A stretch of DNA of 64,000 nt from Streptomyces sp. LUP30 (GTDB lineage Bacteria; Actinomycetota; Actinomycetes; Streptomycetales; Streptomycetaceae), in contig NZ_MJAJ01000003.1 in assembly GCF_001746365.1 (NCBI RefSeq), positions 64,251 through 128,250 on the forward strand. Direction: 5' to 3'. The notes under the pieces were generated by a model. It made no database searches and was not told the DNA's origin. It saw nothing but the letters and a program-made list of their open reading frames with translations. Below, piece after piece: positions 6,956-58,588 of this stretch (positions are counted from its first letter, which is position 1; the number at the start of each line of letters is the position of its first letter). The position numbers and the translations under genes were made by a program.

Positions 6956-8551
6956 GTGGTCGTCACCGAGCCAGTGCCCGAGGGCATTCTGAGGCGTCAG
7001 TCGGCGCGTGAGTCGGCGGCGCGCACCTATGCGCGTGCCCTGCCCATCGTGCCGGTGCGGGCACGCGGCCTGACCATCGAGGGCGCGGACGGCCGCCGCT
7101 ACCTCGACTGTCTCTCGGGCGCCGGCGCTCTCGCCCTCGGGCACAACCATCCCGTCGTGCTGGAGGCCGTCCGCAACGTGCTCGACTCGGGCGCGCCCCT
7201 TCAGGTGCTCGACCTCGCGACCCCCGTCAAGGACGCCTTCGTCACCGAGTTGTTCCGCACCCTGCCGCCCGGCCTGGCCGACCACGCGCGCGTGCAGTTC
7301 TGCGGGCCGGCCGGCACGGACGCCGTGGAGGCCGCGCTCAAGCTGGTCCGGGCCGCCACCGGCCGTACGGGCGTCCTGGCGTTCACCGGCGCCTACCACG
7401 GGATGACCGCCGGATCCCTCGAAGTCTCCGGGGGCGCCGGCGACGTCAGGGTGGCACGGCTGCCCTATCCGCAGGACTACCGCTGCCCGTTCGGCGTCGG
7501 CGGCGAGCGCGGCGCCGAGCTCGCCGCCCGCTGGACCGAGTCCGTCCTCGACGATCCCAAGTCGGGGGTACGGCGGCCCGCCGGGATGATCATCGAACCC
7601 GTGCAGGGGGAGGGAGGGGTGATCCCGGCCCCGGACGCCTGGCTGCGCCGGATGCGACAGATCACCGCGGACCGCTCCATCCCGCTGATCGCCGACGAGG
7701 TCCAGACGGGCGTCGGGCGGACCGGCGCGTTCTGGGCGGTGGAACACAGTGGCGTCACCCCCGACGTGATGGTCCTGTCCAAGGCCATCGGCGGCAGCCT
7801 GCCGCTCGCCGTCGTCGTCTACCGAGAGGAACTCGACGTCTGGCAACCGGGCGCCCACGCGGGCACGTTCCGCGGCAACCAGCTCGCCATGGCCGCCGGC
7901 ACGGCCACCCTCGCCTTCGTCCGCGAGAACGGCCTCGCCGACCGCGCCGCCGTCCTGGGCGCCCGCATACTGGGCCGGCTCCGGCGCCTCGCCGAGGAGT
8001 TCCCGTGTGTGGGGGACGTACGAGGGCGCGGGCTGATGATCGGGGTCGAGATGGTGGACCCGGAAGCGCCACGCGGGAGCGCGGGGAGCGACGAGACCGG
8101 TGGGGCCGACGACGTCCACCCGGCCGGTGCGATGAGTGGGTCCGCCGGGGCCCATGGGCTCGGTGGTGCGCATCGCCCCCTCCCCGCCGCCCCGGCGCTG
8201 GCCCTCGCCCTCCAGCGGGAGTGCCTGCGGCGCGGCCTGATCGTCGAGCTCGGGGGCCGTCACGCAGGCGTCGTACGACTGCTTCCGCCGTTGACCATCA
8301 CCGACGAGCAGGCCGCCGCGGTGCTGGACCGACTGGCGGACGCCATGGCGGCCGTGGCCGCGAGCCGCGCCCACGGCACGGCCGACAAGGGACACAAGGG
8401 AGGCAAGGGAGGCAAGGGACCCAAGGAGCTGACGGCACACGCGGGGCAGGCGGGGCAGGGGGAGGCGCACGGCCCGGGCAGACGGAACCCGCCGGGCCGG
8501 CCCCCCGAGCAGGTCCCGCGCCAGGACAGCCGCGCCGACCGCGCCGGATGA
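6956..8551 (+). CDS. Class III PLP aminotransferase of a siderophore operon (diaminobutyrate aminotransferase-like)
   Basis: 531 residues; first gene of a three-gene NIS siderophore operon. The fold-type I PLP signature is complete: DEVQTGVGRTG with the cofactor Asp, and the Schiff-base Lys in VLSKAIGGSLP (about residue 277). The closest family by motif is 2,4-diaminobutyrate:2-oxoglutarate aminotransferase (RhbA/Dat type), which makes the diamine for NIS siderophores. It is longer than the usual 430-460 residues because of an inserted Gly/Ala/His-rich stretch near residues 378-420 and a basic Lys/Gly-rich tail after about residue 475. The GTG at 6956 has GGAGG at 6941-6945. I see no iron box upstream. 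The specific diamine product is inferred from family and neighbours only. Confidence 0.85.
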   Translation: MVVTEPVPEGILRRQSARESAARTYARALPIVPVRARGLTIEGADGRRYLDCLSGAGALALGHNHPVVLEAVRNVLDSGAPLQVLDLATPVKDAFVTELFRTLPPGLADHARVQFCGPAGTDAVEAALKLVRAATGRTGVLAFTGAYHGMTAGSLEVSGGAGDVRVARLPYPQDYRCPFGVGGERGAELAARWTESVLDDPKSGVRRPAGMIIEPVQGEGGVIPAPDAWLRRMRQITADRSIPLIADEVQTGVGRTGAFWAVEHSGVTPDVMVLSKAIGGSLPLAVVVYREELDVWQPGAHAGTFRGNQLAMAAGTATLAFVRENGLADRAAVLGARILGRLRRLAEEFPCVGDVRGRGLMIGVEMVDPEAPRGSAGSDETGGADDVHPAGAMSGSAGAHGLGGAHRPLPAAPALALALQRECLRRGLIVELGGRHAGVVRLLPPLTITDEQAAAVLDRLADAMAAVAASRAHGTADKGHKGGKGGKGPKELTAHAGQAGQGEAHGPGRRNPPGRPPEQVPRQDSRADRAG

Positions 8552-8681
8552 TCCGGCCGGCCGCTCCCCACCGGCGTCACCGGAGCCCGGCGCGCCCGGG
8601 GGAGCGGGAGCGACCGGCGGCTTCGTGCCCGCGCCTGCTCGCTTCGCCCTTCATTCCACGAGGACCGACCGAGGACCGACC

Positions 8682-10742
8682 TTGACCACCTCCCCGCAAC
8701 ACGCCGACGCCGAGCCCGGACCCCCTGCGGACGCACCACCGGCGCCGCCCGAGCGGCCGTCCGCCTCCTCCTCCGCCGGGCTCGCCGCCCCCTCCGCGCT
8801 CTCGTTGCCGACGCCGCGTGGGCCGGAAACGGCCCCACCCGCCGAACCGCCGCATTCCGACGCCGACGACCTCCTGGACCACCCCGATCCGCACACCGCC
8901 GCCCAGGCCGCCGCCGTGGAGAACCTGCTGCGCTGCTGGGTCCGCGAGACGGGCCTGGCCGCCCCCGGCGACGGCGTCCTGCGCGTGCCGTTGCCCGCGA
9001 GCGGCGTCAGCCTGCTCGTCCCCGTACAGCACTGGTCGGCGACGGGTTGGCACCGCTTCGGCCCGCCGCGCCTGGCCGGCGCTCCCGAGCAGGCCCCGTC
9101 CGCGGACGCCGTCACGGTCGCCGCCCTGCTGGCCCGCGAGACGCCCGCGAGCGGCCGGGGCGGCGCGGGTGGCAGGGACGGCAGGGACGGCAGCGGTGAC
9201 GAAGGCGTCGACCTGGTCGCGCGGGTCGCCGACTCCGTCCGCCGTACCGCCGCCTTCATCGCCGAGCGCCGAGAGCGCCCCGCCGACGGCCCCGACCTGT
9301 TCCTGGCCGCCGAGCAGGCGCTGCTGCTGGGCCACCCGCTCCACCCGACCCCCAAGAGCCGAGAAGGGCTCACGGAGGGTGAGGCGCGGCGTTACTCGCC
9401 CGAGTCGCGCGGATCCTTCCCGCTCCACTGGCTCGCCGTCGCCCCCACCGTGCTCGCCACGGACTCCGCCTGGACGGAGGGCGGCCGCCCCGTCCCCGCC
9501 GCCCGGCTGACGGCGCGGCTGGCGGGCGCGGGACTGCCGCTGCCCGACGGTTTCGCCGCCCTGCCCGTGCATCCCTGGCAACTGGGCGAGATGCGCCGCC
9601 GACCCGAGGCCGAGGCGCTGTTCGACGCCGGTCTGCTCCGGGATCTGGGCGCGCACGGCCTTCCGTGGCACCCCACCTCCTCCGTCCGCACCGTGCACCG
9701 GTCCGGCGCCGGGGCCATGCTGAAGCTGTCCCTGGGCCTGCGCATCACCAACTCGCGCCGGGAGAACCTGCGCAAGGAACTCCACCGGGGCGTGGAGGTG
9801 CACCGCCTCCTGCGTTGCGGCCTCGCCGAGCGATGGCACGCGGCCCACCCGGACTTCGACATCGTCCGCGATCCGGCCTGGCTCGCGGTGGACGGCCCGG
9901 ACGGCCGCCCGCTGACCGGACTCGACGTGATGATCCGCCACAACCCCTTCGCCCCGGCGGACGACGTCTGCTGCCTCGCCGGTCTCGTGGCGCCCCGGCC
10001 GCATGCCCGCGAGGCGGCCGACGCGGACGGCGCGGACCACCGCCCGCCCGGGACACCGCCCGCCCCCGCGGGCGCGGGGCCGGTCCGGCGCTCCCGGCTG
10101 GCCGTGCTCGTCACGCGTCTCGCCGGGCGCACCGGCCGGCCGCCGGGGGCGGTGGCGGCGGAGTGGTTCCTGCGCTACCTGGAGCAGGTCGTCCGGCCCG
10201 TGCTGTGGCTCGACGGCGCTGCGGGGATCGCCCTGGAGGCGCACCAGCAGAACACGCTCGTCCTGCTGGACCGGGAGGGCTGGCCCAGGGGCGGCCGCTA
10301 CCGCGACAACCAGGGCTACTACTTCCGCGAGTCCCGCCGCGCCGACCTCGACGCCCGGCTGCCCGGAGTCGGCGAGCGCAGCGACTCCTTCGTCTCCGAC
10401 GACGTCACCGACGAGCGGTTCTGCTACTACCTGGGGATCAACAACGTGCTGGGTCTGATCGGCGCGTTCGGCTCCCAGCGGCTCGCCGACGAGCGTCTGC
10501 TGCTCGCGGCCTTCCGGCGCTTCCTCGCCGACGCCGACCGGCCTCGCACCGACGGCCGGCCCGCCTCCGGCCCCGGGCGGACGGGCGGCGGCCGCAGTTC
10601 GCTGCCCGCCCGGCTGCTCGACGCACCCGTCCTGCGCTGCAAGGCCAATCTCCTCACCCGGCTGCACGGGCTCGACGAACTCGTCGGACCGGTGGACACC
10701 CAGTCCGTCTACGTCGACGTCGCCAACCCCCTGCTCGTCTGA
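8682..10742 (+). CDS. IucA/IucC-family NIS siderophore synthetase
   Basis: 686 residues from the TTG at 8682, which has GAGGA at 8671-8675 with 6-base spacing; an ATG at 8625 in the same frame is an alternative. The first 70 residues are Pro/Ala-rich and probably disordered. The IucA/IucC core includes HPLHPTPKSREG (ATP-binding region), PVHPWQL, a SSVRTVH segment, LKLSLGLRITNSRREN, and, near the C-terminus, ALEAHQQNTLVLL and the FhuF-like region with RDNQGYYF. These enzymes adenylate a citrate-type carboxylate and condense it with an amine or hydroxylamine. Two Ala/Gly/Pro-rich insertions (about residues 160-175 and 440-470) are usual Streptomyces padding. It sits between its aminotransferase and acyltransferase. 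The product cannot be named from sequence. Confidence 0.92.
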   Translation: MTTSPQHADAEPGPPADAPPAPPERPSASSSAGLAAPSALSLPTPRGPETAPPAEPPHSDADDLLDHPDPHTAAQAAAVENLLRCWVRETGLAAPGDGVLRVPLPASGVSLLVPVQHWSATGWHRFGPPRLAGAPEQAPSADAVTVAALLARETPASGRGGAGGRDGRDGSGDEGVDLVARVADSVRRTAAFIAERRERPADGPDLFLAAEQALLLGHPLHPTPKSREGLTEGEARRYSPESRGSFPLHWLAVAPTVLATDSAWTEGGRPVPAARLTARLAGAGLPLPDGFAALPVHPWQLGEMRRRPEAEALFDAGLLRDLGAHGLPWHPTSSVRTVHRSGAGAMLKLSLGLRITNSRRENLRKELHRGVEVHRLLRCGLAERWHAAHPDFDIVRDPAWLAVDGPDGRPLTGLDVMIRHNPFAPADDVCCLAGLVAPRPHAREAADADGADHRPPGTPPAPAGAGPVRRSRLAVLVTRLAGRTGRPPGAVAAEWFLRYLEQVVRPVLWLDGAAGIALEAHQQNTLVLLDREGWPRGGRYRDNQGYYFRESRRADLDARLPGVGERSDSFVSDDVTDERFCYYLGINNVLGLIGAFGSQRLADERLLLAAFRRFLADADRPRTDGRPASGPGRTGGGRSSLPARLLDAPVLRCKANLLTRLHGLDELVGPVDTQSVYVDVANPLLV

Positions 10743-10763
10743 ACGGTCCGAGAGGAGTCCGCC

Positions 10764-11369
10764 GTGCCTCTTGCCGGGACGGCCGCAGACCCCGGTGCGC
10801 CTTCGGTCCCCGCCGTCGGCGACCTGGGGGCCGTCGGCACACCCGCCGGTGCGTTCCGGCTCGTCCCCGTGCGGATCGAGCGGGATCTCCCGCTCGTCGG
10901 CCGGTGGATGAACGACCCGGCCGTCGCCGCCTTCTGGGACCTGGCGGGACCCGAGTCCGTGACCGAGCGACATCTGCGCGGACAACTCGCCGCCGCAGGA
11001 CACAGCATCCCGTGCCTGGGCGTGCTGGAGGGGCGGCCGATGAGCTACTGGGAGATCTACCGGGCGGACCTCGACCCGCTGGCCGGCCACTACCCGGCCC
11101 GACCCCACGACATCGGAGTCCACCTCCTCATCGGCGGCGCGGCCGACCGGGGACGAGGACTCGGCGGCCCCCTGCTCGAAGCCGTCGCCGATCTGGTCCT
11201 CGACGGAACGCCCGAGTGCACACGGGTCGTCGCCGAACCCGACCTGCGCAACGTCCCGTCCGTCGCCGCCTTCCTGAGCGCCGGTTTCCGGTTCTCCGCG
11301 GAGCTCGATCTGCCCGCCAAGCGGGCGGCCCTGATGATCCGGGAACGTCGGTTGCGTGATCTCCTGTGA
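10764..11369 (+). CDS. GNAT acyltransferase of the siderophore operon (IucB/RhbD/AlcB type)
   Basis: 201 residues. It starts at GTG 10764 with GAGAGGAG just upstream (10749-10756), 21 bases after the synthetase stop, so it is cotranscribed. The AlcB/IucB-type GNAT pattern is visible: RWMNDPAVAAFWDL, SYWEIYRADLDPL, a cofactor loop with GAADRGRGLG, and VVAEPDLRNVPSVAAFLSAGF. Relatives acylate N-hydroxylated diamines (hydroxylysine, hydroxydiaminopropane) before condensation by IucA/IucC enzymes. No N-hydroxylase or decarboxylase gene accompanies it, so its substrate would have to be supplied from elsewhere in the genome, or the operon makes a different product. Confidence 0.85.
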   Translation: MPLAGTAADPGAPSVPAVGDLGAVGTPAGAFRLVPVRIERDLPLVGRWMNDPAVAAFWDLAGPESVTERHLRGQLAAAGHSIPCLGVLEGRPMSYWEIYRADLDPLAGHYPARPHDIGVHLLIGGAADRGRGLGGPLLEAVADLVLDGTPECTRVVAEPDLRNVPSVAAFLSAGFRFSAELDLPAKRAALMIRERRLRDLL

Positions 11370-54197: not shown

Positions 54198-55894
54198 CGC
54201 GATCCCTCCTCGGCGGCGCCCGCCGGTGCGGACAGGACGGGTTCCGATCCGGACCGCTGACCCGGTGGGCCCGGCCGCGGGCCGGGCTCGGTGAGCGCCT
54301 CCGGCAGGACGACGGTGAACTCGGCGCCCCCGCCGGCCGCATCGCCCACGGACGCGCTGCCGCCCTGCCGCTCGGCGAGCCTGCGCACCAGGGAGAGCCC
54401 GATCCCGCGCTTGCCGTGCGCCGGAGGCTTCTTGGTGGACCAGCCCTCGGTGAAGATCAACTCGTGCTGCTCGGCAGGGATGCCGGGGCCGGTGTCCCGC
54501 ACCCGCAGTACGGCGGTACGGCCCTCGGCGCGCAGTTCGACCTCCACGCGCGCGTGCGGCTTGCCCGCGACGGCGTCGAGCGCGTTGTCCACGAGGTTGC
54601 CCACGACGGTGACCAGTCCGCGCGGGTCGATCAGCCGGTCGGGCAGCCGGGTCCGGTCGGAGACCCACAGGGCGACGCCCCGCTCGGCCGCGACGGTCGC
54701 CTTGCCCACGAGCAGGGCGGCGAGCAGCGGATCCCCGATCTTCTCGGTCACCTGCTCCGCGGTGGCCCGGTGATCGCCCACCACCTCGCCGACGAACTCC
54801 ACGGCGTCGTCGTACATCTCCAGTTCCAGCAGGCCCAGCAGCGTGTGCATACGGTTGGCGTGCTCGTGGTCCTGGGCCCGCAGCGCGTCGATGAGACCGT
54901 GCGTCGAGTCGAGTTCCCGGCCGAGCTGCTCCAGCTCCGTGCGGTCGCGCAGCGTGGCCACGGCGCCGCCGTCGTCGGTGGGCATGCGGTTGACGACCAG
55001 GACGCGCTGGCCCCGGACGGCGATCAGATCCGTGCCGGTCACCCGGCCGGCCAGCACGTCGGCCGTACGTCCCTCGCCGAGTGCCTCGTCGGGCAGCCCG
55101 CCCACCGCCTCGTCGCCGATGCCCAGGAGGCGCTGCGCCTCGTCGTTGAGCAGGCGGACGCGGCCGGTCCGGTCCAGGGCGACGACGCCCTCCCGGATGC
55201 CGTGCAGCATCGCCTCGCGCTCGGCGAGCAGCGCGGAGATGTCCGAGAAGGCCAGGTCGCGGGTCTGCCGCTGGATCCGCCGGGAGATGAGCCAGGCCGC
55301 CAGCGCACCCACGGCGAGCGCTCCTCCGGCATAGGCGAACAGTCCGGGAATGGCGTGGATGAGGCGGGCGCGCACGCTGTCGTACTCGATGCCGACCGAG
55401 ACCGCACCGATGATCTTGCCTTGGCCGTCGCGCAGCGGCACCTTGCCGCGGGCCGAGCGGCCCAGGGTCCCGCTGTCGATCTCCATGACGTCCCGGCCGC
55501 CGAGAGCCTTCTTCGGGTCCGTCGAGACATGGCCGCCGACCTGGGCGGGGTCTTTGTGCGACCAGCGGATGCCGTGCAGATCCATGACCACGACGTACTC
55601 GGCGCCGCTGGCCTTGCGGATCCGCTCGGCCTCCCGCTGCACCGGACCGCCGACCGTCGGCCGCGAATGCTGGAGGTCCTCGGCGATCTGCGGCACCGCC
55701 GCTGTCGTCTGTGCGATGGCCAGCGCGCGGCGCATCGCCTGGTCGTCCAGCTGGTTGCTGAGCGGGGCGAGGAACAGTCCGGTGGCGAGCACCACGACTC
55801 CCGCGGCGATCGTCAGCTGCATGAGCAGGAGCTGCGAGAACATGCGCCGCGGCATTCCGAGGCGCAGGCGACGAGCGGGGGGAGTGGGGCTCAT
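54194..55894 (-). CDS. CitA/DcuS-type sensor histidine kinase
   Basis: 566 residues from ATG 55894. TM1 about residues 19-42 (LLLMQLTIAAGVVVLATGLFL), an extracytoplasmic sensor (Cache/PASC-like) to about residue 175, with RKASGAEYVVVMDLHGIRWSHKDP, TM2 LFAYAGGALAVGALAAWLI, then a PAS domain (REGVVALDRTGRVRLLNDEAQRLLGIGDEA). The phosphoacceptor is in DALRAQDHEHANRMHTLLGLLELE (R-x4-H-E-x2-N type). ATPase: GNLVDNALDAV, RVRDTGPGIP, and KRGIGLSLVRRLAE. The extracytoplasmic pattern follows citrate/C4-dicarboxylate sensors, so ligands may be similar. It is cotranslated with its regulator. An inverted repeat lies 56 bp upstream. Confidence 0.93.
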   Translation of the reverse strand: MSPTPPARRLRLGMPRRMFSQLLLMQLTIAAGVVVLATGLFLAPLSNQLDDQAMRRALAIAQTTAAVPQIAEDLQHSRPTVGGPVQREAERIRKASGAEYVVVMDLHGIRWSHKDPAQVGGHVSTDPKKALGGRDVMEIDSGTLGRSARGKVPLRDGQGKIIGAVSVGIEYDSVRARLIHAIPGLFAYAGGALAVGALAAWLISRRIQRQTRDLAFSDISALLAEREAMLHGIREGVVALDRTGRVRLLNDEAQRLLGIGDEAVGGLPDEALGEGRTADVLAGRVTGTDLIAVRGQRVLVVNRMPTDDGGAVATLRDRTELEQLGRELDSTHGLIDALRAQDHEHANRMHTLLGLLELEMYDDAVEFVGEVVGDHRATAEQVTEKIGDPLLAALLVGKATVAAERGVALWVSDRTRLPDRLIDPRGLVTVVGNLVDNALDAVAGKPHARVEVELRAEGRTAVLRVRDTGPGIPAEQHELIFTEGWSTKKPPAHGKRGIGLSLVRRLAERQGGSASVGDAAGGGAEFTVVLPEALTEPGPRPGPPGQRSGSEPVLSAPAGAAEEGSR

Positions 55895-55949
55895 ACCCAA
55901 GACGGTACGTGGACGGGGCCGCGCAACCGTAGGGGCAGGTGGTGTGGAT

Positions 55950-55968
55950 CTCTTGATCCGCTCAAGAG
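55950..55968 (-). promoter_or_regulatory. Inverted repeat upstream of the CitA-type kinase
   Basis: CTCTTGA (55950-55956), five bases, TCAAGAG (55962-55968): 7-bp perfect arms, 56 bp upstream of the kinase start. A candidate operator. Confidence 0.5.
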
Positions 55969-56057
55969 GAAACGGTTCGGCCGCACCCGCGCGTAGCGCT
56001 GCCCGTCCGCCGGAAAGCCGCGGCCGTGCACAGGGGGCGGTACCGGTCAGAGGCCGC

Positions 56058-56999
56058 TCAGCCCGTCCACGCCGCGCCCGACAGCTCCCGCACCGCCACG
56101 ACGTCCATCCGCGCGGGCGTGCCGAGGACCGACGTTCCGCAGCTCTCCGGCCGGGGCGGCGTCGCGGCGCCCTGGTCCACCACGACCTCCCAGTGGCGTC
56201 CGTCCGTGTGCGCGACGGTCACCTCCCAGCGCGGCGCGCCCCCGGCGGTCCGCACGACGCTCAGCGCTTCCGCCGCGTCCTCGCCGATGGCCGCGCGCAC
56301 CGCCAGTTCCGCCGCCTGGCCGGGCCGCTCCCAGGCGGAGCTCCCCCGACACCCCTGCAGGACGATCCGGCCCTCCTGGACACCGTGCAGGACCTCCTGG
56401 ACGGTGGGTGCTCCGACGCGGCCGTACGCGTATCCGTGCGGTAGGACGAGCAGGGTGGGGGAGAAGCGGTGACCTCCCAGATGGGTGACCTCCCAGGCCC
56501 CCCGCAGTCCGGAGGCGGCCAGTTGCGCGGCCAGCGGACGGCCGAGGAGCGCGCAGCAGCGGTCGCGTCTGCCGTTGGTGCAGACGAGCGCGAGCGGGTC
56601 CCCGGTATGAGGCCCGCCCCCAAGCGCGTCGTCGAAGGTGCGGTGCTCGCCACGGCCGAGCGCGGCGAAGTCGAGGTCCAGCAGCCGGTGCGGATCGTGG
56701 GTCGTGGCGCCGTGCAGCCACACCCGCCCGGGAACGGTGTGGGCCGCGTAGACCTGCCGCAGCGCCGGAGGGCCGAAGTCGGCGTGGCGTCCCGGACGCC
56801 GGATGAGCGCGATACGCACCCCGGTGCCCTGCGCGGCCGCTTCCAGGGCGCGGCCCAGGGAGGGGTCCAGGTGGCTGGAGACCAGCGCTCTGGCGCCCCA
56901 GGGGCCGGGCTGTTCCAGGAGCAGCCAGGTGGTTGCCGTGGCCGCGGTTCCGGCGAGGGGCTCGTCGAGGTCCCGCGAGACGGTCGCGCACGTACTCAC
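56058..56999 (-). CDS. Sucrase/ferredoxin-like protein, iron-regulated
   Basis: 313 residues from GTG 56999. This start was chosen because the -10/iron box ends 1 base upstream and upstream codons look non-coding. The Suc_Fer-like (thioredoxin-like ferredoxin) fold is shown by CTNGRRDRCC (Cys140, Cys148, Cys149: C-x8-C) and HLGGHRF (His173 and His177: H-x3-H), in the order seen in the Apd1/Aim32 proteins, which bind a [2Fe-2S] cluster with two Cys and two His ligands. WLHGATTHDP and LVLPHGYAYGR are other family landmarks. A DmdR/IdeR box overlaps its promoter, so it should be made under iron starvation. A role in electron transfer or ferric-siderophore reduction is inference. Confidence 0.82.
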   Translation of the reverse strand: MSTCATVSRDLDEPLAGTAATATTWLLLEQPGPWGARALVSSHLDPSLGRALEAAAQGTGVRIALIRRPGRHADFGPPALRQVYAAHTVPGRVWLHGATTHDPHRLLDLDFAALGRGEHRTFDDALGGGPHTGDPLALVCTNGRRDRCCALLGRPLAAQLAASGLRGAWEVTHLGGHRFSPTLLVLPHGYAYGRVGAPTVQEVLHGVQEGRIVLQGCRGSSAWERPGQAAELAVRAAIGEDAAEALSVVRTAGGAPRWEVTVAHTDGRHWEVVVDQGAATPPRPESCGTSVLGTPARMDVVAVRELSGAAWTG

Positions 57000-57018
57000 A
57001 GAGGTGAGCCTAACCTGA
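57000..57018 (-). promoter_or_regulatory. Iron box (DmdR1/IdeR operator) of the sucrase/ferredoxin-like gene
   Basis: Minus strand TCAGGTTAGGCTCACCTCT, 15-16 of 19 positions like the actinobacterial iron box TTAGGTTAGGCTCACCTAA. It ends one base before the GTG and overlaps the putative -10 TAGGCT, which would give a leaderless mRNA blocked by iron-loaded repressor. Confidence 0.85.
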
Positions 57019-57331
57019 CTCGCCTCGGGATGGCCTACGGCCCGGTCGGACGGCCGCCCGTCCGCCGGGACCGTGCGGGACGCGTGCGGGCCGGTACGCA
57101 GGTGGGCCGGTACGCGTGCGGGCGGGTACGCGTGCGTGTGCCGTGGTGCAGGGACGCCCCGCCGGCACAAACCTCACGCCGGGACGGGACGAACGGCCTC
57201 CCGGATCCGGCGGCCGGAACGGCAGGCCGTGGCGGAGGGTCGGCCGGGATCCGCCACGTCGTCGTGCCCGCCTCACTCCGGCGGCTCGTCATCGTCCCTG
57301 CCCCTCGGCCGGCTCGTCAGCGTGCCCGGCC
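57019..57331. other. Gap with G/C-rich imperfect repeats
   Basis: 313 bases between two genes on the minus strand; I support no gene here. Bases 57060-57160 contain overlapping variants of GGTACGCGTGCGGGC, an imperfect short tandem array of unclear role. Confidence 0.5.
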
Positions 57332-58588
57332 TCACCCGGGCAGCGGCAGCGGTCGGGGCGGCCTCGGGCCCACGTAGTGTCCGCTCGGGCGCATCCTCAG
57401 GGGGCGTTCGCCGTACTCCTCCAGGGCGTGTGCGACCCAGCCCGCCGTACGGGCGACGGCGAAGATCGTCTCGGCGGCCGAGGCCTCCATGCCGCTCGAC
57501 GCGGTGAGGACGGCGAGCGCCAGGTCCACGTTGGCGTGCAGCGGCGCGTGGCGGGCGGTGGTGGCCACCACGTCCCGGGCCGCGGCGAGGGCGGGCGCGG
57601 CCTCCGGGATCTCCTCCAGGAGGGCGAACAGGGCACGTGCGCGGGGGTCCTCGCCGGGGTAGAGCCGGTGGCCGAGACCGGGGACGCGACGGCCGGCCCG
57701 CAGCTCCTGCGCGATCACGGGCCCCGCGCTGCCGACGTCCAGTACGTCGAGCAGCATGCGGTGGGCGAGCCCGCCGGCCGCGCCGTGCAGCGGCCCCTCG
57801 ATCACGCCGAGGCCGGCGGACACGGCCGCGTAGGCATGCGCGCGGGCCGACGCGGCGACCCGTACCGCGAGCGTCGAGGCCGCGAGATCGTGGTCGGCGA
57901 GCAGGCCGAGAGCCGTGTCGAGGACGTGCAACTGTGCCTTTCCGGCGGGCCGCCCGCTGAGCCGCCCCCACAGGCGGCCGGCGAGGGAGTCCCCGTCGCG
58001 ATGGGTGAGTCGCTTCGGTGGCAGGGCGGCGACCAGGGTGGGGATCAGAACGCGCGCGGTGGCGAGAACCGCTTCCTCGGACAGGTCGAAACGCAGTGGG
58101 TCCGCGGCTGCGGCGGCGACGGCCGCCACCCGCAACCGGTCGGTGGGGCCGGTGTGTTCGGGCAGCGCGTCCACCACACGGCGGGCGGCCGCCACCGACG
58201 CCTCGGGCGCGGTGAAGACGGCCCCGGCTCGGAACCGCCCCGTCCACAGCCACTCCGCGACCTCCTCGTAGGAGTGCCGGACGGCCAGGTCGACCGCGTC
58301 CACGCCCCGGAAGTAGTACCGGTCCTCGTCGATGAGGGTGAGGTGCGTGCGCACGGACGGCTCCGCCCCCGGACCCGGACCGGCCTCGCGCCTGGTGCGC
58401 CGGGCGAGCGCCTCGACCTCCTGGGCGTCGAAGGTGCTGCCCCGGCCGCCGGGCGTGCGCCTGCTGCTCAGCCGGCCGCGGCTGACGTACGCGTACACGG
58501 TGTCGGGTTTCACCCCGAGCAGCTCGGCGGCCTCCCTGGTGCTCAGCCGTCGTTCGGGGTGGCCGGGGCCGGGTTCCTGATCGCGCAT
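57332..58588 (-). CDS. Citrate synthase-like protein with N-terminal helix-turn-helix
   Basis: 418 residues from ATG 58588. Residues 15-45 are a MerR/excisionase-type HTH: LSTREAAELLGVKPDTVYAYVSRGRLSSRR. The remainder is a citrate synthase fold: the first catalytic His in GPLHGAAGG, the second in GLGHRLYPGEDPR, and Asp in HANVDLALAVL. These residues are intact. The family condenses acetyl- or propionyl-CoA with oxaloacetate, or acts as 2-methylcitrate synthase. The fused HTH is unlike ordinary GltA and suggests autoregulation or a sensor role. The gene is divergent from the CobW GTPase with three DnaA-box-like sites between them. Activity is not certain. Confidence 0.85.
   Translation of the reverse strand: MRDQEPGPGHPERRLSTREAAELLGVKPDTVYAYVSRGRLSSRRTPGGRGSTFDAQEVEALARRTRREAGPGPGAEPSVRTHLTLIDEDRYYFRGVDAVDLAVRHSYEEVAEWLWTGRFRAGAVFTAPEASVAAARRVVDALPEHTGPTDRLRVAAVAAAAADPLRFDLSEEAVLATARVLIPTLVAALPPKRLTHRDGDSLAGRLWGRLSGRPAGKAQLHVLDTALGLLADHDLAASTLAVRVAASARAHAYAAVSAGLGVIEGPLHGAAGGLAHRMLLDVLDVGSAGPVIAQELRAGRRVPGLGHRLYPGEDPRARALFALLEEIPEAAPALAAARDVVATTARHAPLHANVDLALAVLTASSGMEASAAETIFAVARTAGWVAHALEEYGERPLRMRPSGHYVGPRPPRPLPLPG

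Follow-up and report, generated by a model that had tools for sequence, protein, structure and literature searches.

A predicted iron box abutting the start codon of a Suc_Fer-like protein gene in Streptomyces, and its recurrence in other actinobacteria

The DNA analysed here, hereafter the window, comprises 64,000 nucleotides of Streptomyces sp. LUP30 (contig NZ_MJAJ01000003.1, positions 64,251 to 128,250) and raises the question of why a Suc_Fer-like protein gene lying far from any siderophore gene should carry what looks like an iron box. The gene runs from 56999 to 56058 on the minus strand, with a GTG start and a TGA stop, and encodes 313 amino acids of a predicted bis-histidine (bis-His) [2Fe-2S] protein. 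The answer put forward here, tentatively and with somewhat less than an even chance of being right as a whole, is that the gene is repressed by DmdR1 and induced by iron starvation, and that its product is a proton-coupled bis-His [2Fe-2S] electron donor which mobilises bound iron. We infer DmdR1 binding, leaderless transcription, cluster ligation and electron transfer from the observations that follow.

The predicted DmdR/DtxR-type box, TCAGGTTAGGCTCACCTCT, occupies 57018-57000 on the minus strand and abuts the GTG with zero bases between them. The first-pass annotation had described a near-consensus box overlapping the -10, which holds, but had placed one base between box and start codon, which does not. 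The box differs at three positions from TTAGGTTAGGCTCACCTAA, the desferrioxamine DmdR1 site of S. coelicolor as printed in PMC7174319, and at four, counted by eye, from the palindrome TTAGGTTAGGCTAACCTAA, which had no match across the window at ≤3 mismatches. The TTAGGTTAGGCTCACCTAA-type 19-mer at ≤3 mismatches was matched once in the window and not at all in 100 shuffles. The 15-bp core has no mismatch at this gene; allowing ≤3 mismatches it was found twice in the window, both times here, against 1.43 expected, so that this count does not discriminate.

Within the box, TAGGCT (57012-57007, minus strand) is the predicted -10, of the form TANNNT. As it stands 7 nt ahead of the GTG, a leaderless transcript starting from the G of GTG is predicted, with its promoter covered by the box, and because the -10 lies inside the box a bound repressor would block RNA polymerase. 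Should transcription begin further upstream, the AGG inside the box could be a weak ribosome site. Scans for standard sigma-70 promoters and for terminators over 55800-57400 gave no match.

Conservation was evaluated in a sample of 150 Streptomyces genomes, of which 107 have a Suc_Fer homologue. Each box was scored by its mismatches to whichever of three box patterns fitted best, in scans anchored on the codon of the N-terminal Cys4, with a reversed-pattern control. For the clade with the motif HxGGH, 102 unique Streptomyces genes were fetched, 101 of them with enough upstream DNA, and a box with ≤4 mismatches was found upstream of 93 of these 101. The best-match mismatch counts were bimodal, clearly so against the reversed control. 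From a scan of genome contigs the best 80 of 551 confirmed loci were taken, all named Streptomyces; in every one of them the box runs up to the GTG without a gap (two carry one extra codon), and the closest protein among them is from Streptomyces rishiriensis (94%). It is scarcely credible, then, that the start region resembles an iron box by chance and that DmdR1 does not use it: the three mismatches in the outer arms would allow this, whereas the empty shuffles, the fixed position in these 80 loci, the bimodal counts and the recurrence of the box on other branches, described below, all speak against it.

The footprint was described from 245 upstream segments filtered for a GTG and for ≤3 mismatches to the 10-base string AGGTTAGGCT; 192 were retained, and 172 of these are unique. 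Positions -17 to -3 are 91-100% conserved in these 172 segments (-17 to -8 partly from selection), and the bases of TAGGCT each 98-100%, in what is a preselected set. Conservation falls to 35-47% at positions -24 to -26, and a second conserved block lies at about -41 to -27 (56-86%). In the Streptomyces orthologues this second block reads GGAAGTC, at about -42 to -33, with GGAA in 58 of the 80 named loci; it is absent from the window. Promoters of extracytoplasmic function (ECF) sigma factors follow the pattern GGAAT-N18/19-GTT. The GGAAGTC block resembles an ECF-type -35, and a stress sigma factor could thus provide an input. Codon 2 is AGT in 151 of the 172 segments; AGT accounts for one of the 129 Ser codons in six window genes, and that one is codon 2 of the Suc_Fer gene.

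The 9.18-Mb genome was searched for the 15-bp core AGGTTAGGCTNACCT at ≤1 mismatch, giving seven matches at six places against none for the reversed pattern. The core is perfect at three of the six, the Suc_Fer gene included, and all six adjoin siderophore or iron-type genes. Besides the Suc_Fer gene of the window, these places are a Pyridoxal_deC gene adjoining a SIP gene, a siderophore-binding-type lipoprotein (assigned by sequence inspection), a FecCD permease, an FhuF_C protein divergent from a GntR-type regulator labelled by eye (L005, G000:C44:95403; one core mismatch) and a penicillin amidase (L007, G000:C98:7579; one core mismatch). By comparison with PMC12161575, the L005 pair appear to correspond to S. 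coelicolor SCO6158/6159, and the amidase is probably the counterpart of desG described there. One DmdR-type repressor gene is present in the genome (G000:C40), with PF02742, PF01325 and FeoA/DtxR SH3 domains.

The protein matches PF06999 (Suc_Fer-like) in Pfam with 71.8 bits against a cut-off of 34.9, over profile positions 1-191 of 191, and is the only match in a genome-wide profile search of the source genome. No family was assigned to it by NCBIfam, and Pfam detected neither a SIP/FAD_binding_9 nor an FhuF domain, only PepSY at E 0.16 besides PF06999. A scripted check found CTNGRRDRCC from residue 140 and HLGGH from residue 173, which gives exactly the Cys140-x8-Cys149 and His173-LGG-His177 that the first-pass annotation had read in a sucrase/ferredoxin-like protein; the motif is kept across the Streptomyces clade, so the conservation in close relatives on which that reading depended is present. 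These four residues are predicted to hold a [2Fe-2S] cluster, as we infer from sequence. Their codons, all on the minus strand, lie at 56580..56582 (Cys140; 204 of 204 full-length rows, and invariant in A2), 56553..56555 (Cys149; 196 of 196 unique sequences), 56481..56483 (His173; 195 of 196) and 56469..56471 (His177; Asp in 47 of 196 family members). The pairs at 173/177 among the 196 homologues are H..H in 148, H..D in 47 and S..H in one, and His177 is kept in all 102 unique Streptomyces genes of the HxGGH clade. Two further Cys are conserved to the same degree as the predicted ligands: Cys4 (56988..56990, minus strand; 196 of 196 unique) and, in a C-terminal PESCG, Cys287 (56139..56141, minus strand; 190 of 196, the remaining six being gaps). 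They might pair with each other or make a redox-active site. In VIA-align 2, residues 222-313 matched mostly cystatin-like or similar folds, a common arrangement only, and this candidate was set aside.

Siderophore-type genes were identified in the window only at 6956-11366, with Pfam elsewhere covering the Suc_Fer and kinase genes only, which agrees with the first-pass annotation that the gene lies near no siderophore gene. This locus is of the nonribosomal peptide synthetase-independent siderophore (NIS) type, with Aminotran_3, IucA/IucC carrying an FhuF-like C-terminal domain, and Acetyltransf_8. The suggestion that the Suc_Fer protein is a ferric-siderophore reductase dedicated to it draws on their presence in one window, on the confirmed IucA/IucC, aminotransferase and acetyltransferase domains and on the likely production of Suc_Fer in iron starvation. 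Against this, no iron box was found at 6956-11366 within 3 mismatches of either 19-mer used, some 45 kb separate the two, the genus is rich in SIP and FhuF_C proteins, and Suc_Fer has neither a SIP nor an FhuF domain; such a role is highly unlikely. The earlier proposal that the gene serves this locus fails because there is no box there, and Suc_Fer mostly keeps its own box where its neighbours differ. Of the accompanying proposal of ferric-siderophore reduction, the dedicated reductase is weakened by the near-universal SIP and FhuF_C proteins, while imported ferric siderophores remain a candidate acceptor.

In the window a citrate synthase-like gene (labelled by eye) lies upstream of Suc_Fer and a sensor kinase downstream, and the protein could instead be an accessory that informs this sensor kinase/response regulator pair (55843-53520) of redox or iron state. 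Of 51 Streptomyces loci, 43 have a kinase match in the flanking DNA that was fetched; it usually follows the gene immediately, and in a few loci it lies kilobases off. The order SCO5831-SCO5830-SCO5829 has been described for S. coelicolor, with SCO5830 between the kinase SCO5829 and the citrate synthase-like SCO5831 (PMC9739823). On the other side, the kinase is absent from eight of the 51 loci, six of which still have the box (in L073 shifted by 5 nt and weak), so that the box mostly follows the gene rather than its neighbourhood; nor was a sensor kinase seen by eye next to Suc_Fer at L204 and L218, two boxed loci of Streptosporangiaceae. We consider an accessory role very unlikely. Between the Suc_Fer gene and the kinase lies an inverted repeat, CTCTTGA-N5-TCAAGAG (55950-55968), a possible operator of the kinase pair; TGGATCTCTTGA recurs downstream of Suc_Fer in L016, L017 and L019.

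Iron boxes were also found on other actinobacterial branches. In family f17, assigned to Streptosporangiaceae from named proteins, among which that of Planobispora longispora is identical to L204, 18 genomes have a match; 12 were examined and 11 have a box, the boxless case (G559) being a divergent SxGGH copy. Near-consensus boxes stand about 37-125 nt before the Cys4 codon of the HxGGD genes of this family (L204, L218, L241-L249). In the order-mate family f3 a box with 3-4 mismatches lies 35-214 nt from the aligned start of the second, HxGGD copy in nine of nine loci, and no box was found upstream of the HxGGH copies. Two loci were examined in family f26, which has a match in five genomes, and a box is present at L210 and absent from L206. 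Of the other 53 unique loci, 43 score no better than the reversed control (≥8 mismatches), and the six with ≤4 comprise five Streptomyces and L210. Boxed HxGGH genes were found in Streptomycetaceae only, namely in Streptomyces and two of three other genera; the second Suc_Fer protein of some Streptomyces, 30-36% identical, is of HxGGD type and has no box (11 of 11 unique). Over all 196 unique genes, in which Streptomyces is heavily over-represented, a box with ≤4 mismatches accompanies 100 of 149 His177 genes and 17 of 47 Asp177 genes. No siderophore genes were seen by eye beside the boxed L204, L218, L210, L221-L223 and L225 with a simple gene finder, which overlooked Suc_Fer itself in L204, L218 and L223.

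A FastTree phylogeny of 103 thinned sequences (292 columns, midpoint root) separates the boxed clades, with unboxed relatives between them. Iron control of the Suc_Fer family was thus probably gained more than once, as judged from these sequences; no number of gains is given, in view of the uneven support of the deep nodes and the midpoint rooting.

Under the preferred reading of an iron-starvation electron donor, iron-loaded DmdR1, of the DtxR family, would repress the Suc_Fer gene via the conserved box on its start site, and iron starvation would switch on synthesis of the predicted bis-His [2Fe-2S] thioredoxin-like ferredoxin. The ferredoxin would then donate electrons, coupled to protons, and so release iron from bound ferric forms. 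The acceptor is the least certain step and might be ferric siderophores after import, or bacterioferritin. Electron transfer for iron mobilisation is favoured because control of this type is met at siderophore genes, because FhuF and Bfd, both [2Fe-2S] proteins made under iron limitation (Bfd as a predicted DmdR1 target), mobilise iron reductively, and because His ligation gives a proton-coupled potential of the kind measured for FhuF.

Several observations weigh against this proposal. SIP-type reductases occur in 149 and FhuF_C in 148 of the 150 Streptomyces genomes, with or without Suc_Fer, so that the genus shows no obvious lack of a reductase, and 43 of the 150 have no Suc_Fer match. A complementary distribution of Suc_Fer and SIP/FhuF_C was considered and is uninformative, both of the latter being near-universal; the only genome without SIP (G086) has a Suc_Fer gene with a box (L069), a single case and too little. 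An Fe-S protein made during iron shortage is costly. Among the 101 Streptomyces orthologues, a box could not be recognised in three and is weaker, though in the same place, in five; outside Streptomyces most Suc_Fer genes examined have no box, and the sampled HxGGH genes outside Streptomycetaceae, as well as those of one of the three further Streptomycetaceae genera, are boxless. No gene neighbour links Suc_Fer to any iron substrate. The predicted structure has a middling predicted local distance difference test (pLDDT) score of 73.7, with the loop 176-180, at His177, below 50, and Foldseek returned no match to it in PDB at E≤0.001.

Two further points against electron donation for iron release come from the literature and favour a different function. 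SCO5830 is reported to be highly expressed under copper overload, from which a role in metal and reactive oxygen species stress has been suggested (PMC12161575), and Aim32 acts in protein-thiol redox control, its loss raising aberrant disulphides. An iron-controlled thioredoxin-like ferredoxin could likewise limit metal-induced oxidative or disulphide damage, triggered by iron starvation or copper overload, and the two further invariant Cys, Cys4 and Cys287, would suit it. The iron box here is of the type found at siderophore genes, and starvation lowers Fenton-active iron, both of which tell against such protection; it is a serious alternative, if a rather unlikely one.

The near-invariant box in Streptomyces, recurring on other branches, offers a testable entry to a family that likely has an iron-economy job. 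Suc_Fer and thioredoxin-like ferredoxin (TLF) proteins are widespread, and Apd1 is still described as having unknown function (PMC11126956). The HxGGD subgroup in addition provides a natural test of how [2Fe-2S] proteins select their ligands. More broadly, the actinobacterial Suc_Fer proteins could stand next to FhuF and Bfd as one more class of [2Fe-2S] protein made in iron starvation, acting as proton-coupled donors that were repeatedly and independently recruited to DtxR-family regulons. They would occur naturally as HxGGH and as HxGGD, and the HxGGD form might hold a Cys2-His-Asp [2Fe-2S] cluster; this generalisation is speculative and we doubt that it holds in full. We know of no natural example of a Cys2-His-Asp [2Fe-2S] ligand set.

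The closest known counterpart is SCO5830 of S. coelicolor, with which the window gene is matched by synteny, family name and predicted DmdR1 control. A 2025 paper gives SCO5830 as a predicted DmdR1 target, a 'putative thioredoxin-like ferredoxin'; dmdR1 was anti-correlated with 26 of the 30 targets predicted there, and the four exceptions that are named do not include SCO5830 (PMC12161575). The predicted regulation is therefore already in print, and what is added here is the geometry of the abutting start, the conservation of the ligands, the recurrence of the box outside Streptomyces and the Asp variant. At the level of titles and abstract openings, the literature yielded no experimental work on any bacterial Suc_Fer protein, and a term search of a C. 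glutamicum DtxR paper (PMC1382209) found neither sucrase nor ferredoxin.

Among characterised systems, the yeast bis-histidinyl thioredoxin-like ferredoxins Apd1 and Aim32 share CX8C followed by HxGGH, a likeness by motif description. The second Cys and first His are 24-75 residues apart in proteins of that type (PMC11138216), whereas the gap from Cys149 to His173 is 23, one short, as in 154 of 196 homologues; the window protein is also bacterial and predicted to be iron-box controlled, with weak evidence for the TLF fold. A C-terminal Trp is a further requirement in Aim32. Bfd (SCO2114), a ferredoxin giving electrons to bacterioferritin, has a putative DmdR1 site in S. coelicolor. Its sequence family is unrelated to Suc_Fer, and no ferritin gene was noticed near Suc_Fer among incompletely scanned neighbours. 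FhuF, a ferric-siderophore reductase with a C-terminal [2Fe-2S] cluster, is made under iron limitation and differs from Suc_Fer in family and ligands. Its potential is nevertheless pH-dependent, as would be expected for His ligation in Suc_Fer, a property seen by the authors of that work as selected in siderophore-interacting proteins (PMC8068687).
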